DNA from: a virus
Strand: one strand, 5' to 3'
DNA: 48,584 bases
Virus record (IMG/VR): IMGVR_UViG_3300047678_000368
Location: 1-48,584 of that record
The notes beneath the pieces were generated by a model that worked only from the letters and a program-made list of their open reading frames with translations, had not been told where the DNA came from and did not search any database. The position numbers and the translations under genes are program-made. Shown here piece by piece: positions 6,423 to 46,409 of this stretch (positions are counted from its first letter, which is position 1; each line of letters begins with the position of its first letter).

Positions 6423-7307
6423 TCATCCCCCGATGCCAACGCCGTGCTCCGGAGCGCGAACCGTCGCCGCATCACTAGCGCCCCGCGTTTCGGCGTAGTC
6501 TTTGGTCGGTGGCGTGCGACGTGTGGTCGCCGCGCGATAGCCAGGGAATGACGGGTGCGTCACGACGCGCGGAGTAGGCCAGAGGCGAATCAGTTCGCCA
6601 TCCAGTCGAATGCCCATCTCGGTGCGTGCCGCAGCCGACTGCTTGAAGAAGAACGCGACGCCGAGTGCGTCGCAGCGATCGCGCATCACGCGCGGCCACG
6701 CGAGATCATGCGGGCGATAGCCAGGTCCAGATTCGCCACCGTAGATCACCCAGTCGATGCCGTCGAGTGCGAGGTCGTCGAGTGGCCCCAGGGCGGGCTC
6801 GTACGAGATGAAGCGCACGACCGCGGGCACGGTGCGCAGCGCGTCCGCGCGCTCCGCGACGCGCATGTCTTCGATTGACGTTCCGAGCCAGACGTGCGGC
6901 CAGCCTTCGCCCCAGTCCGCCGGCAAGCACTGCGCGATGCGTTCGGGACGCTTCGTCAACAACTGCCATGTGAGCGAGGGCGTGGACCGAATGAGGTCCC
7001 ACAACCGCGGGCGCGTTGCCTCCGCGATCGGATGGTCTTCAAAGACATCGCAGAGCGACGCGCAAAACACGAACGTCTCTTCATCGCGCAGCGCCGCTTC
7101 GCGATTCCACGTGATCGGCTTGCGCCAAATCGCGTTGCTCGTGACCTGGCGCGTCGTCGTGCTGGCTGGGCCCCACAGCTTGAGGCCCATGCGATTCGTG
7201 ACGAGCGTGTCGGCGTAACAGTGCTTGCATCCATCGCTGACCTTCATGCAACCCATCCACGGGTTGAGCGTGTGATTGGTCCACGCGATGATCGAGTTGT
7301 CTGCCAT
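6423..7307 (-). CDS. Phage Gp37/Gp68 family protein (DUF5131)
   Basis: A 294-residue member of the DUF5131 family (Gp37 and Gp68 of mycobacteriophages). Diagnostic features are SIIAWTNHTLNPWMGCMKVS near the N-terminus, the Cys-rich DGCKHCYAD (Cys at 27, 30), WQLLTKRPERI near residue 115, WLGTSIED, and VIYGGESGPGYRP near residue 190. The Cys arrangement resembles a metal-binding or Fe-S site, but the activity of the family is not established. ATG at 7307 has CCGAGG nine bases upstream. It lies beside a methyltransferase-like and a ParB-like gene, a pairing that hints at DNA modification. The C-terminal 40 residues are Thr/Arg-rich and variable. Confidence 0.88.
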   Translation of the reverse strand: MADNSIIAWTNHTLNPWMGCMKVSDGCKHCYADTLVTNRMGLKLWGPASTTTRQVTSNAIWRKPITWNREAALRDEETFVFCASLCDVFEDHPIAEATRPRLWDLIRSTPSLTWQLLTKRPERIAQCLPADWGEGWPHVWLGTSIEDMRVAERADALRTVPAVVRFISYEPALGPLDDLALDGIDWVIYGGESGPGYRPHDLAWPRVMRDRCDALGVAFFFKQSAAARTEMGIRLDGELIRLWPTPRVVTHPSFPGYRAATTRRTPPTKDYAETRGASDAATVRAPEHGVGIGG

Positions 7308-10010: not shown

Positions 10011-11066
10011 TTAGACGGTGAGCGCCAACAGCTTGGAAAACACGGTCGCTTTGGTTTGTGCGATGCGTCCCGTCGGGAGCATGGCCGTCAGCTTCTCGCC
10101 CTTCACCGGCAGCACGTCGTAGTGGTCGAGCGCTTCCGTCGCCGCGTTGAACGCATCCCATGAGGTGCACGCGCCGAGCTGGCCCGTGCCGTTCACCCAC
10201 AGCTGCTGAATCGTGAATCGGGTCGCTTCTGCTTTGGCCACACGCGACGGATACAGCGACTTCGCGACCTTCGACGCATCGGCGTCGAGCGCTTCCGGCA
10301 GCGGGCAGAGCGTGTCGAGCACCGCGGCCGCGAACTCCGCTTCGCTCAGTGACGTGCTGCGCATGGTGGCGAACGCCGCGGCCATCGCTTCAGCATCAGC
10401 GACGGTGCCAGTCCACAAGTCCTTCGCGGCCTGATGCCCTTTGCCCGCCGCGTTTGCGCCCACGTGGAGCACGCTGCGCACGGTGGTCCGACCATTCGCC
10501 ATCGCCATCGCCAGGGTATTTGCGCAGACCACCCGCACCGGCGTGGTGGCGACTTGCACACTGGCCTTCCCGTTGTGGTTCGTGCGGACGAGTCCGTAGA
10601 ACTTGATCTCGTCGCCGCCGTTCTCACCGGCGGCGTCGATGCGGTCACCCGTGAACCGAAGCGCCATCCACGCATCGGCGCCCTCGCGCAGCACGCCGGC
10701 GGTTTCGATTACGGCCAGGCCGTCTTCGACCAGCACGTCCACCATCTGCATCGCCTGCCGGTTCGTCACCAGCTCGTAGCGATCAGAGACGACGCCGAGC
10801 ACCGTATTCCGGTCAGCGCGCACCACGGCGCGGTGGTTCGGCACGTCCAATGCGAGCGAATCGATTTCAACGTCGTTCGCGTCAAGCACCGGGATGGTCG
10901 TCGCGATGGGCCGCAGCGCGAGCGGATAGTCCAAGCCGCCGAGGTGCATCGCCTCATCGAACGACAGTTCGTCGGCGACGATCGTGCCGAGCTGATGCCA
11001 TGCCGACTGACGGAGAGAGACGAAGGACGCGGCGCCGTTTTCGCGAGTGTCGAGCTGATGTGCCAT
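10011..11066 (-). CDS. DUF932 family phage/plasmid-like protein
   Basis: A 351-residue protein matching the DUF932 family (TIGR03299-type), common in phages and plasmids and often highly expressed early. Marks: AWHQLGTIVADELSFDEAMH near the N-terminus, ALDVPNHRAVVRADRNTVLG, VVSDRYELVTNRQA, ADAWMALRFTGD, VRVVCANTLAMAMANG near residue 180 and the helical C-terminus with WDAFNAATEALDHY. The biochemical role is unknown. ATG at 11066 with TCCCGAGG 9 bases upstream. A copy of the 13-bp site and a TATAGC box lie 90-110 bp upstream, and a hairpin with a T tract further up isolates it as a separate unit. Confidence 0.88.
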   Translation of the reverse strand: MAHQLDTRENGAASFVSLRQSAWHQLGTIVADELSFDEAMHLGGLDYPLALRPIATTIPVLDANDVEIDSLALDVPNHRAVVRADRNTVLGVVSDRYELVTNRQAMQMVDVLVEDGLAVIETAGVLREGADAWMALRFTGDRIDAAGENGGDEIKFYGLVRTNHNGKASVQVATTPVRVVCANTLAMAMANGRTTVRSVLHVGANAAGKGHQAAKDLWTGTVADAEAMAAAFATMRSTSLSEAEFAAAVLDTLCPLPEALDADASKVAKSLYPSRVAKAEATRFTIQQLWVNGTGQLGACTSWDAFNAATEALDHYDVLPVKGEKLTAMLPTGRIAQTKATVFSKLLALTV

Positions 11067-11159
11067 GAGAGAATGCCTCGGGATGGGGTTGTGGGCCGTC
11101 GGTGCAGCGCGTGGTGGACGCTGCTGGCCACACAAGAAGGATATCCCGAAGCTATACCT

Positions 11160-11172
11160 TGCGCAAGTGGCA
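11160..11172. promoter_or_regulatory. Dispersed 13-bp site upstream of DUF932
   Basis: Plus strand TGCGCAAGTGGCA; on the minus strand TGCCACTTGCGCA followed by AGG and TATAGC, which looks like a -10 box. It lies 94-106 bp before the DUF932 start. No good -35 is seen at the normal spacing. Confidence 0.5.
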
Positions 11173-11215
11173 CGAGCGAGAAAACTGGCAAAAGTCGGTA
11201 AACGATTCAAAAAGT

Positions 11216-11229
11216 GGCGTTTACACGCC
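11216..11229 (-). terminator. Small hairpin with T tract upstream of DUF932
   Basis: GGCGT and ACGCC (plus bases 11216-11220 and 11225-11229) form a 5-bp stem. On the minus strand it is followed by ACTTTTTG, and on the plus strand by TTTTC. It could stop transcription arriving from the gene ending at 11305. The stem is short, so confidence is limited. Confidence 0.4.
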
Positions 11230-11304
11230 TTTTCACCGGCTTCTGCGCTCATATTTGCTCACAAACCTGCTCTTGACGGCCTCCGGCTTGGGCTCAACGC
11301 GACG

Positions 11305-43814: not shown

Positions 43815-46409
43815 TTACACGACCGAGAAATCTTCCTCGCCCCACGACTGCAGTTCGGGCGCTTGCGTCAGGTGCTTGAATGCCTTGGTCGTGGCGTCGA
43901 CATCGTCGTCGGGCACGGATGCGGTTGGGAAGGCATCCATCTGCGCGAGATACTGTTCCACCTCGTCAGGGTCCCACACAAACACATCGACGTTGCCCGC
44001 GGACACCTGGACAGAGAACGGCTTCCCGCGCGTCACCTTGCTGCCCGTGTCGAGATACGCCACCACGGTGTAGCCGGCGAGTCCGCGAATCGTGTGGAAC
44101 ACGACGTCTTTGCCGGAGGACCCCGGCTCCTGTGCGATCGCAATCTCCGTCGCGTAGCCATCGAGCATCGCCAGCTGATGCATCATGTCTTCGCGATCGG
44201 CCGTATTCACGCGATCGCGCCAGCGGTGCATGATGATGAATCGGCCGTTGGATCGTTGCCCGAGTTTGACCGCGCTCGAGAAGTCGCCACCACCTTTTGT
44301 GGCGGCATTGTCCCAGCCGCGCACCGTGCGGATGATATCCGTCGGCATCGTCTCCAGCAGCATGAACTTGCCTCGCGGGAACACTTTCCCGGCGCTCGGC
44401 GCGATCTTGAAGTTGCTGCGCAGGAGGCGTTCCTGCTCCACGATGGGCAGCGCGAGCAGCTTTGCGCGATACCCTGGGTCGAGCGTTTGCAGGATCTTGT
44501 TGTCTTCGAGCCCGGCGCGAATGAAGGTCACCGACAGCGGTTCCGTCTCCGGACCGAAGCGGTCCGTGAGTTCGCTGGCCGACGCGCCCCAATGGATCTC
44601 ACCATTGATGCGCGCGATGTAGCGAATCACGCCATCGCGTTCGGGGATGGGATAGCCAGTTTTCGCATCCCACCACCACTGCAGGAAATCGGAGAGCCAA
44701 CCGGGTTCCGGATTGAACGTCGCGCGGATGTACGGTCGGACACCGCACGTCGAGCGATTGCGCGATAGCAGATACCAGAACTGATGTGCTGTGAACGTCT
44801 CCAGCTGGTCAAAGCAGATGAGCGCGAGCTGCGCAGACTTCCACTTCTCGACATCCGCCTCGGTCTGCGCATGGGCAAACACCACACGCCCGCCCGCCGG
44901 CGTCACCCATTCGAGATCACCGAGGCGCATCGTCCAGCCTAAACGGCCATAGACTTTCTTGGCTTCATCCCAAATGCCCTTCGGCGCGAGGATCTCGGGA
45001 TAGCTGCGACGAAAGAACGCGGCCGTGAATCCCTTCACGTGTTGATGCCGCGCGCCCTCCATCACGAGCCCGGTGGTGTTGTGCGTCGGGATCATCGCGT
45101 TACCGCACAGATAGAGCCGTGATGGGCTATCGACGGTGAGGCATCGCATCGGAACCGGTGGCACTTCCACGGCGTCCACGATGTAGCGGAACCGCACGAC
45201 GCGCCGCACCGTCTTGCGGATGCGCTCGAGTTTGCGGGAGAGCGAGAACACACGGCACGTGGGCGTGAACGTGACGCGGTAGCTAGGGCCGCAATCGCGC
45301 CCGTAAAGCTTCGCGCGACGCTCGCCCCACTGCGGCTGCATTCCGAGCGAGGCGACCAGATGGAACACCGACTCGGCGAGCTGGCGGTTGGTGTTGTCGA
45401 AGGTGCAGCCACCGTCCTCTTGAATCGTGCCATCGGTGTCCATCAGCCCCTGCAACAGGGCGAGGCGCTGAGGGATCGATGCCCACAGATAGTCGTCCGG
45501 GACGTGCTTGTTGTTGCGCACGTTGAGCAACCGCAGGAAGCGATAGAGCCCCAGAATCCCGAACGTCTGCGCGGATGTATTGCGCGCGCGCACGGGGAAC
45601 CCCGCCCGCCGAATGCGATCCAGAATCTCGGGATCGGTCGTGGTGATCTCACCGCCGTCCGCCGTCCCATCACCGAGCCAGGCACCCAACACGTATGGAT
45701 CCAATGCCAGCGTGCGCGTTGGCAGACGCAGTCGCTTCGCTACCGGAATCGCGTGGTTGGTGCGACCGCGCGACGTGCGGAGCGTGTCGACGATTGCCTG
45801 CGTCGTGCGGACCGCTCCCGCGGGGCCCGGCTTTGTGAGGCGTGATGCAAGCGCCGTATTGCGCGCGTTGATCATCGCGCGAAACGCTTCAGACGAATTC
45901 CCGAGGGACCGTGACGGACGCGACTCCCGGCGCCGGGCCCTCCATGCGGGATCGCTGCGCGTCATGCGTGAGAGATCCTTCGCCGTGTACGTGTGCCACA
46001 AATGCTCCGCACACGCGACCACCTCGGAGCCGTCGCTGAACGTCAGCCGGTACGCCTTCGCATCGTTGACGATCGGCGAGAACGCCACCGCGCGACACGG
46101 TCGCCCCTGCTCGTCGAACACGTGATCGGATTCGTTGAGAGTGCCCATGGTGCGCCACCCGCGTGTCGTCGGGATGGGCGTGTCGATCGCGAGCAGCTTG
46201 CCGCCGCCCGCTGATCCTCCATACAGCACGATGTCTGCCGGACACGAGAGGAACCGCGTCTGCGGCCCGGCCTGTGGTGCGAGCGGCGCGCTCTCGTCGT
46301 AGGCGTTTGGTGGCGGCGGCGCATCGGTGACGACCGGCGCGTGCACGACCTTGGTTTCCCCGTGGCGCATCGCGCGACCGAGCACGCCGCGCGCATAACC
46401 GCGCGCCAT
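43815..46409 (-). CDS. terL: Terminase large subunit interrupted by an intein
   Basis: DNA-packaging ATPase and nuclease. The coding frame of 864 residues contains an intein at residues 72-444; the spliced protein would be 491 residues. Exteins: DIVLYGGSAGGGK (Walker A) is split by the intein and would rejoin as GGSAGGGKTTG. Walker B-like ALICFDQLETF follows. The nuclease part has TVRGWDNAATKGGGDFSSAV and EIAIAQEPGSSGKDVVFHTI. The N-terminal 50 residues are variable. It lies downstream of the small subunit (34-bp gap). Packaging depends on splicing, because the ATP site is broken without it. Confidence 0.92.
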   Translation of the reverse strand: MARGYARGVLGRAMRHGETKVVHAPVVTDAPPPPNAYDESAPLAPQAGPQTRFLSCPADIVLYGGSAGGGKLLAIDTPIPTTRGWRTMGTLNESDHVFDEQGRPCRAVAFSPIVNDAKAYRLTFSDGSEVVACAEHLWHTYTAKDLSRMTRSDPAWRARRRESRPSRSLGNSSEAFRAMINARNTALASRLTKPGPAGAVRTTQAIVDTLRTSRGRTNHAIPVAKRLRLPTRTLALDPYVLGAWLGDGTADGGEITTTDPEILDRIRRAGFPVRARNTSAQTFGILGLYRFLRLLNVRNNKHVPDDYLWASIPQRLALLQGLMDTDGTIQEDGGCTFDNTNRQLAESVFHLVASLGMQPQWGERRAKLYGRDCGPSYRVTFTPTCRVFSLSRKLERIRKTVRRVVRFRYIVDAVEVPPVPMRCLTVDSPSRLYLCGNAMIPTHNTTGLVMEGARHQHVKGFTAAFFRRSYPEILAPKGIWDEAKKVYGRLGWTMRLGDLEWVTPAGGRVVFAHAQTEADVEKWKSAQLALICFDQLETFTAHQFWYLLSRNRSTCGVRPYIRATFNPEPGWLSDFLQWWWDAKTGYPIPERDGVIRYIARINGEIHWGASASELTDRFGPETEPLSVTFIRAGLEDNKILQTLDPGYRAKLLALPIVEQERLLRSNFKIAPSAGKVFPRGKFMLLETMPTDIIRTVRGWDNAATKGGGDFSSAVKLGQRSNGRFIIMHRWRDRVNTADREDMMHQLAMLDGYATEIAIAQEPGSSGKDVVFHTIRGLAGYTVVAYLDTGSKVTRGKPFSVQVSAGNVDVFVWDPDEVEQYLAQMDAFPTASVPDDDVDATTKAFKHLTQAPELQSWGEEDFSVV
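45078..46196 (-). other. Class 3 intein with LAGLIDADG endonuclease in TerL
   Basis: Intein of 373 residues (precursor residues 72-444). It begins Leu-Leu-Ala-Ile-Asp-Thr-Pro-Ile-Pro and ends MIPTHN, with Thr445 as the +1 residue. Block B reads CAEHLWH, with His136 and Trp138. Block F reads PMRCLTVDSP, with Cys423. Block G has Thr442-His443-Asn444. Position 1 is Leu, so the usual Cys/Ser nucleophile is missing; the Trp-Cys-Thr set at B:12, F:4 and G:5 is the hallmark of class 3 inteins, in which the block F Cys starts splicing. Two homing-endonuclease motifs, LGAWLGDG (around 241-248) and LLQGLMDTDG (around 318-327), keep their Asp residues. Confidence 0.9.

Follow-up and report, generated by a model that had tools for sequence, protein, structure and literature searches.

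The terminase large subunit (TerL) gene of this virus encodes a P-loop that is cut in two, which raises the question of what the inserted segment is and how a working packaging ATPase could arise from such a gene. The window, that is, the whole stretch of DNA analyzed, is a complete IMG/VR virus record of 48584 bases. An open reading frame on its minus strand (43815–46409) runs for 864 codons with zero internal stops and encodes an 864-residue precursor that matches Pfam Terminase_6N (E = 1.4e-10 on the whole frame) and TIGR01630. The translation, and an alignment to the intact P-loops of Rhizobium phages RHph_N28_2 and RHph_TM3_3_3, show that the N-extein (residues 1–71; 46197–46409, minus strand) stops partway through Walker A, at GGSAGGGK. 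The C-extein (residues 445–864 plus the stop; 43815–45077, minus strand) matches Terminase_6N, Terminase_6C and phrog_979 (E 1.9e-104) and comprises the remaining ATPase domain and an RNase H-like nuclease. Genes for a small terminase, portal, Mu-F-like head morphogenesis, P22-like coat and tail tape-measure proteins lie around it, and TerL therefore belongs to an ordinary packaging, head and tail module. Elsewhere in the window, a DUF5131 protein is encoded in the phage early region (6423–7307, minus strand; Pfam E 3.9e-68) and a DUF932 protein at 10011–11252.

The Walker A loop is split as GGSAGGGK/...THN/TT by a 373-residue insert (precursor residues 72–444, Leu1 to Asn373 of the insert; 45078–46196, minus strand). 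TerLs that have no intein were found in the two Rhizobium phages (45–46% identical to the window TerL over 450 columns) and in other viruses. When residues 72–444 were deleted, the junction aligned without a gap with that of an intein-less TerL (window, ADIVLYGGSAGGGKTTGLVMEG; Rhizobium phage, ADIAIYGGSAGGGKTWALLMEP), and both splice sites are therefore fixed between the P-loop Lys and Thr. The predicted spliced product of 491 residues reads VLYGGSAGGGKTTGLVME and contains Walker A, Walker B and the RNase H-like nuclease. The match to intein and terminase families, with junctions at the uninterrupted P-loop of the relatives, is far beyond chance. We hold with high confidence that the insert is a class 3 intein placed in the TerL P-loop, that its splicing, which we infer, restores Walker A, and that the intein family is mobile.

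The best PDB sequence matches of the intein by phmmer were the DnaB inteins MsmDnaB1 (6bs8, E 4e-21) and MchDnaB1 (6rix, E 5e-20), both of which are experimentally proven class 3 inteins. Matches to the class 1 intein gp41-1 were much weaker, at 8e-4 for a variant engineered with the class 3 motif and 0.02 for the native form. We then read the insert against the published class 3 signatures (PMC5222942, PMC7664689). His B:10 (His136, intein residue 65; 46002–46004, minus strand) and Trp B:12 (Trp138, intein residue 67; 45996–45998, minus strand), the Trp of the WCT signature, were invariant in a 41-member family alignment. Cys F:4 (Cys423, intein residue 352; 45141–45143, minus strand) is the predicted initiating nucleophile; it aligns with the block F Cys of MsmDnaB1 and MchDnaB1, as Trp138 does with their WCT Trp. 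Block G reads Thr-His-Asn (442–444; 45078–45086, minus strand) and is followed by Thr445 (45075–45077, minus strand), the presumed +1 nucleophile, which in the mature protein is the Thr of Walker A.

The signature was also followed in 174 distinct related inteins from viral contigs, genomes, phages and plasmids; as a best-matching sample gathered by similarity to the window intein, they yield counts that are not prevalences and cannot prove the signature universal, but they do show that the window protein has it intact. Among these matches listed, Cys F:4, Thr G:5 and Asn G:7 occurred in 174 of 174, His G:6 in 170, and the +1 residue was Ser (112) or Thr (62) throughout. Trp B:12 was present in all but one of the 174 listed, the exception (L005) being without the whole segment. 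Apparent losses of this Trp from L011, L012 and L013 in an automatic table proved to be alignment slips, the residues being there when read by eye.

Residue 1 of the window intein is Leu, and thus no Cys, Ser or Thr nucleophile stands at this position. The initial annotation had singled out Leu1 for comparison with known members. Among the 174 matches listed, residue 1 was Ala in 113, Leu in 19, Gly in 10, Met in 8, Gln in 7 and other residues in the rest; Leu1 is ordinary because 19 related inteins of this sample share it, and as the second commonest residue there it is not a rarity. It also occurred in 14 of the 67 members listed with a strict GxxxxGK/ junction. The intein as a whole has no close relative, the nearest among the matches listed being 52% identical. 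A class 3-type intein in Mycobacterium phage Ghost gp214 has Ser at residue 1 yet a complete His-Trp-Cys-Thr-His-Asn set.

An AlphaFold2 model of the intein built from the 41 aligned family members reached a pLDDT of 94.6 and a pTM of 0.90, and superseded a poor model from four sequences (pLDDT 73). A Foldseek search of the PDB with this model returned PI-SceI over its full length (TM about 0.70), then the class 3 DnaB inteins (target TM 0.81–0.85) and then I-DmoI. In the modeled architecture, a LAGLIDADG domain is inserted into a Hint domain, and the phmmer and Foldseek matches together point to common ancestry with the proven class 3 inteins. Two LAGLIDADG motifs lie between blocks B and F with their acidic residues kept: Asp247 in LGAWLGDG (45669–45671, minus strand) is Asp in 40 of 41 aligned members, and Asp326 in LLQGLMDTDG (45432–45434, minus strand) in 41 of 41. 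Pfam LAGLIDADG_3 (PF14528) matched the frame with E = 4e-8, and the window copy is predicted to be an active endonuclease at present. The initial annotation had described a class 3 intein with intact LAGLIDADG Asp residues in the P-loop of a phage terminase. Its intein coordinates and residue positions (K71, L72, H136, W138, C423, T442-H443-N444 and T445) were exact in the precursor, Trp138, Cys423 and Thr442 do fall at B:12, F:4 and G:5, and the class, the intact Asp residues, the P-loop placement and the terminase host were all confirmed by the searches and alignments above.

From the class 3 chemistry described previously (PMC5222942, PMC7664689), a splicing pathway can be proposed. Cys423, aided by His B:10, Trp B:12 and Thr G:5, would attack the Lys71–Leu72 peptide bond to form the branched thioester at block F that is characteristic of class 3. 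The N-extein would then be transferred from Cys423 to Thr445, Asn444 would cyclize after the acyl transfer, and an O-to-N shift would link Lys71 with Thr445, rebuilding GGSAGGGKTT in the 491-residue TerL. Both splicing of the window intein and its block F intermediate are our inferences. As residue 1 has no nucleophile, as in class 2 inteins, splicing by a class 2 or class 1 route, in which Thr445 attacks directly or the first step differs from the usual one, might be considered; we regard it as scarcely credible in view of the complete WCT set and the direct homology to proven class 3 inteins, and class 2 is stated to be known in KlbA only (PMC3196547).

In the class 3 pathway, Thr445 would have a double role as +1 nucleophile and Walker A Thr, by analogy with the +1 Ser of MsmDnaBi1, which is both nucleophile and Walker A residue (PMC6195587). 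A Walker A mutation in HK97 TerL abolishes packaging (PMC9410871). Because TerL ATPases need Walker A (PMC9410871), splicing would be needed before packaging; the precursor should be unable to bind ATP normally, and packaging would therefore be lost without splicing.

Another possibility is that the intein has decayed and no longer splices, the record coming from a defective prophage or from a phage with a dead terminase. In one relative, L005 (6001–6930), decay is seen: in-frame loss has removed the His/Trp segment of block B and the first of the two LAGLIDADG motifs from its P-loop TerL intein, which still has Cys F:4 and Thr-His-Asn and is predicted to be unable to splice. Likewise, inactivity has been published for a class 3 intein in which His B:10 and Cys F:4 are missing (PMC3196547). 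In the window intein, by contrast, every catalytic and signature residue is intact, the 864-codon frame is open with a GC3 of 0.81 in the intein versus 0.79 and 0.78 in the exteins, and the genes around the terminase encode small terminase, portal, head morphogenesis and coat proteins. Decay is thus very improbable.

The Walker B of the window TerL (44799–44813, minus strand; residues 533–537) reads FDQLETF, compared with FDELTHF in most relatives, and is thus of the type DQ-x-E instead of DE-x-T. Gln at this position is common to seven TerLs that form one clade (SH-aLRT 99). Glu follows two residues later in seven of these seven, versus none of the 82 TerLs that have Glu in Walker B, and it is possibly a relocated catalytic carboxylate. 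Because the change occurs in seven TerLs of one supported clade, always with the later Glu, we do not favor a sequencing error or a dead terminase as its explanation. With Walker B changed, it is likely, though not certain, that the spliced TerL is a normal ATPase.

We then analyzed the distribution of the intein family. Searching viral sequences with just the C-extein brought up no more than three distant TerLs, and a profile scan was needed. From a best-matching sample, 42 proteins (the window included) were picked for a GG-type P-loop junction. The TerL family phrog_979 was matched by 39 of their 42 C-exteins; the window and 38 others thus have an intein of the same family in the same P-loop. 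The case is less exceptional than it may seem: among the matches listed, dozens of terminases from phages and prophages show the same arrangement, and class 3 TerL inteins and the Lys/Thr P-loop site have been published (PMC5050341). In two of the 42 C-exteins scanned, a further Pfam Intein_splicing domain was found; the C-exteins of L043 and L044 are unusually long (about 720–755 residues), which suggests two inteins in each of these TerLs.

Identity to the window among the matches listed was 38–52% for most inteins and 22–33% for C-exteins, with an intein 51% identical where C-exteins were 22–31% identical. Intein and C-extein identities to the window did not correlate (Spearman 0.18, p 0.26), and the intein and C-extein trees were discordant. 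L044 (2493 upstream) and L091 (4647 upstream) have C-exteins that are 96% identical and inteins that are 44% identical at the same P-loop site, a natural intein replacement. Between L041 and L037, C-exteins are 51% and inteins 74% identical. The TerLs of L024 and L025 are 98–99% identical; the P-loop is uninterrupted in L024, and L025 has a 409-residue class 3-like insert. The P-loop inserts of L025 and L026 (frame 2573–5287 of L025) carry class 3-like residues, and in them GSGK is separated from block A by some 35 additional residues. In the window's own TerL family, only four of 89 collected members have an intein, and on the tree this takes three changes or more. The uncorrelated identities, together with near-identical TerLs that are empty and occupied or carry swapped inteins, therefore indicate that the intein family is mobile, and its distribution is that of a mobile element which keeps to one insertion site. 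The endonuclease would cut the intein-less P-loop codons of co-infecting phages, and the intein would be copied in.

Rather than a neutral parasite, the intein could hold packaging back as a regulated switch, for instance under redox control. MsmDnaBi1, a related class 3 P-loop intein, is blocked under oxidation by a Cys48–Cys118 disulfide (PMC6195587). However, the equivalent of Cys48 is Ala in the window intein, which rules out a redox switch through this cysteine pair; Cys62 does lie in the block B active-site loop, but it appears in 14 of 41 aligned relatives, and the patchy occupancy and the exchanges of inteins are in keeping with a selfish element. A regulated switch is therefore most unlikely, and we give equally little credence to the intein acting as a conditional timer of DNA packaging, with splicing held until a late-infection cue. 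If such a timer did exist, TerL ATPase activity would appear only after that cue. The mobile class 3 intein thus remains the preferred reading.

Comparison with known systems places the window intein among relatives. The DnaB inteins of Mycobacterium smegmatis (DnaBi1; 6bs8, 6own) and M. chimaera (DnaB1; 6rix, 6riy) share with it the WCT residues, His B:10, Thr-His-Asn, the Hint fold and, as a further likeness, insertion in a P-loop, there at Lys/Ser. They are mini-inteins without an endonuclease, in a bacterial helicase, with Ala1 and Ser+1, whereas the window intein has a LAGLIDADG domain, a phage terminase host, Leu1 and Thr+1, and is without the redox Cys48. PI-SceI, the yeast VMA1 intein, is a class 1 intein; its full-length Hint plus LAGLIDADG layout resembles that of the window model (TM about 0.70), whereas sequence identity in the alignment is only 13–15%.

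Closer in host are the mycobacteriophage TerL inteins TerL1-a to -e and TerL6-f, which lie in the TerL ATPase domain; TerL1-a interrupts the P-loop at Lys/Thr, three of them (TerL1-c, -d and -e) cluster with class 3 inteins, five representatives splice, and BAKA TerL1-b and Bethlehem TerL1-c cut DNA (PMC5050341). These belong to a TerL lineage other than that of the window; the TerL intein of NelitzaMV, a WCT intein at Lys/Thr, is about 35% identical to the window intein. TerLs of Acinetobacter phage TaPaz and Rhodobacter phage RcDurkin likewise have an insert after the P-loop GK with block B His-x-Trp, block F Cys and Thr-His-Asn, although these inteins are divergent (about 30–37% identity). 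TaPaz TerL has been reported as intein-containing with the class unstated (PMC8228797), and its residues at the P-loop appear to be those of class 3; the RcDurkin record is annotated as a terminase only. In the literature, which was covered in part, we found no paper calling class 3 inteins common at the TerL P-loop. Class 3 TerL inteins and P-loop TerL inteins were both already known, and the window intein is another member: a clean, full-length Leu1 addition to class 3 that is ordinary as an individual object. Within the sample compared, the TerL P-loop Lys/Ser-Thr junction is a recurrent address of class 3 inteins in unrelated phages and bacterial phyla, and naturally occurring pairs have an empty and an occupied site or exchanged inteins. 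This agrees with the proposal that class 3 inteins arose in phages and spread from them.
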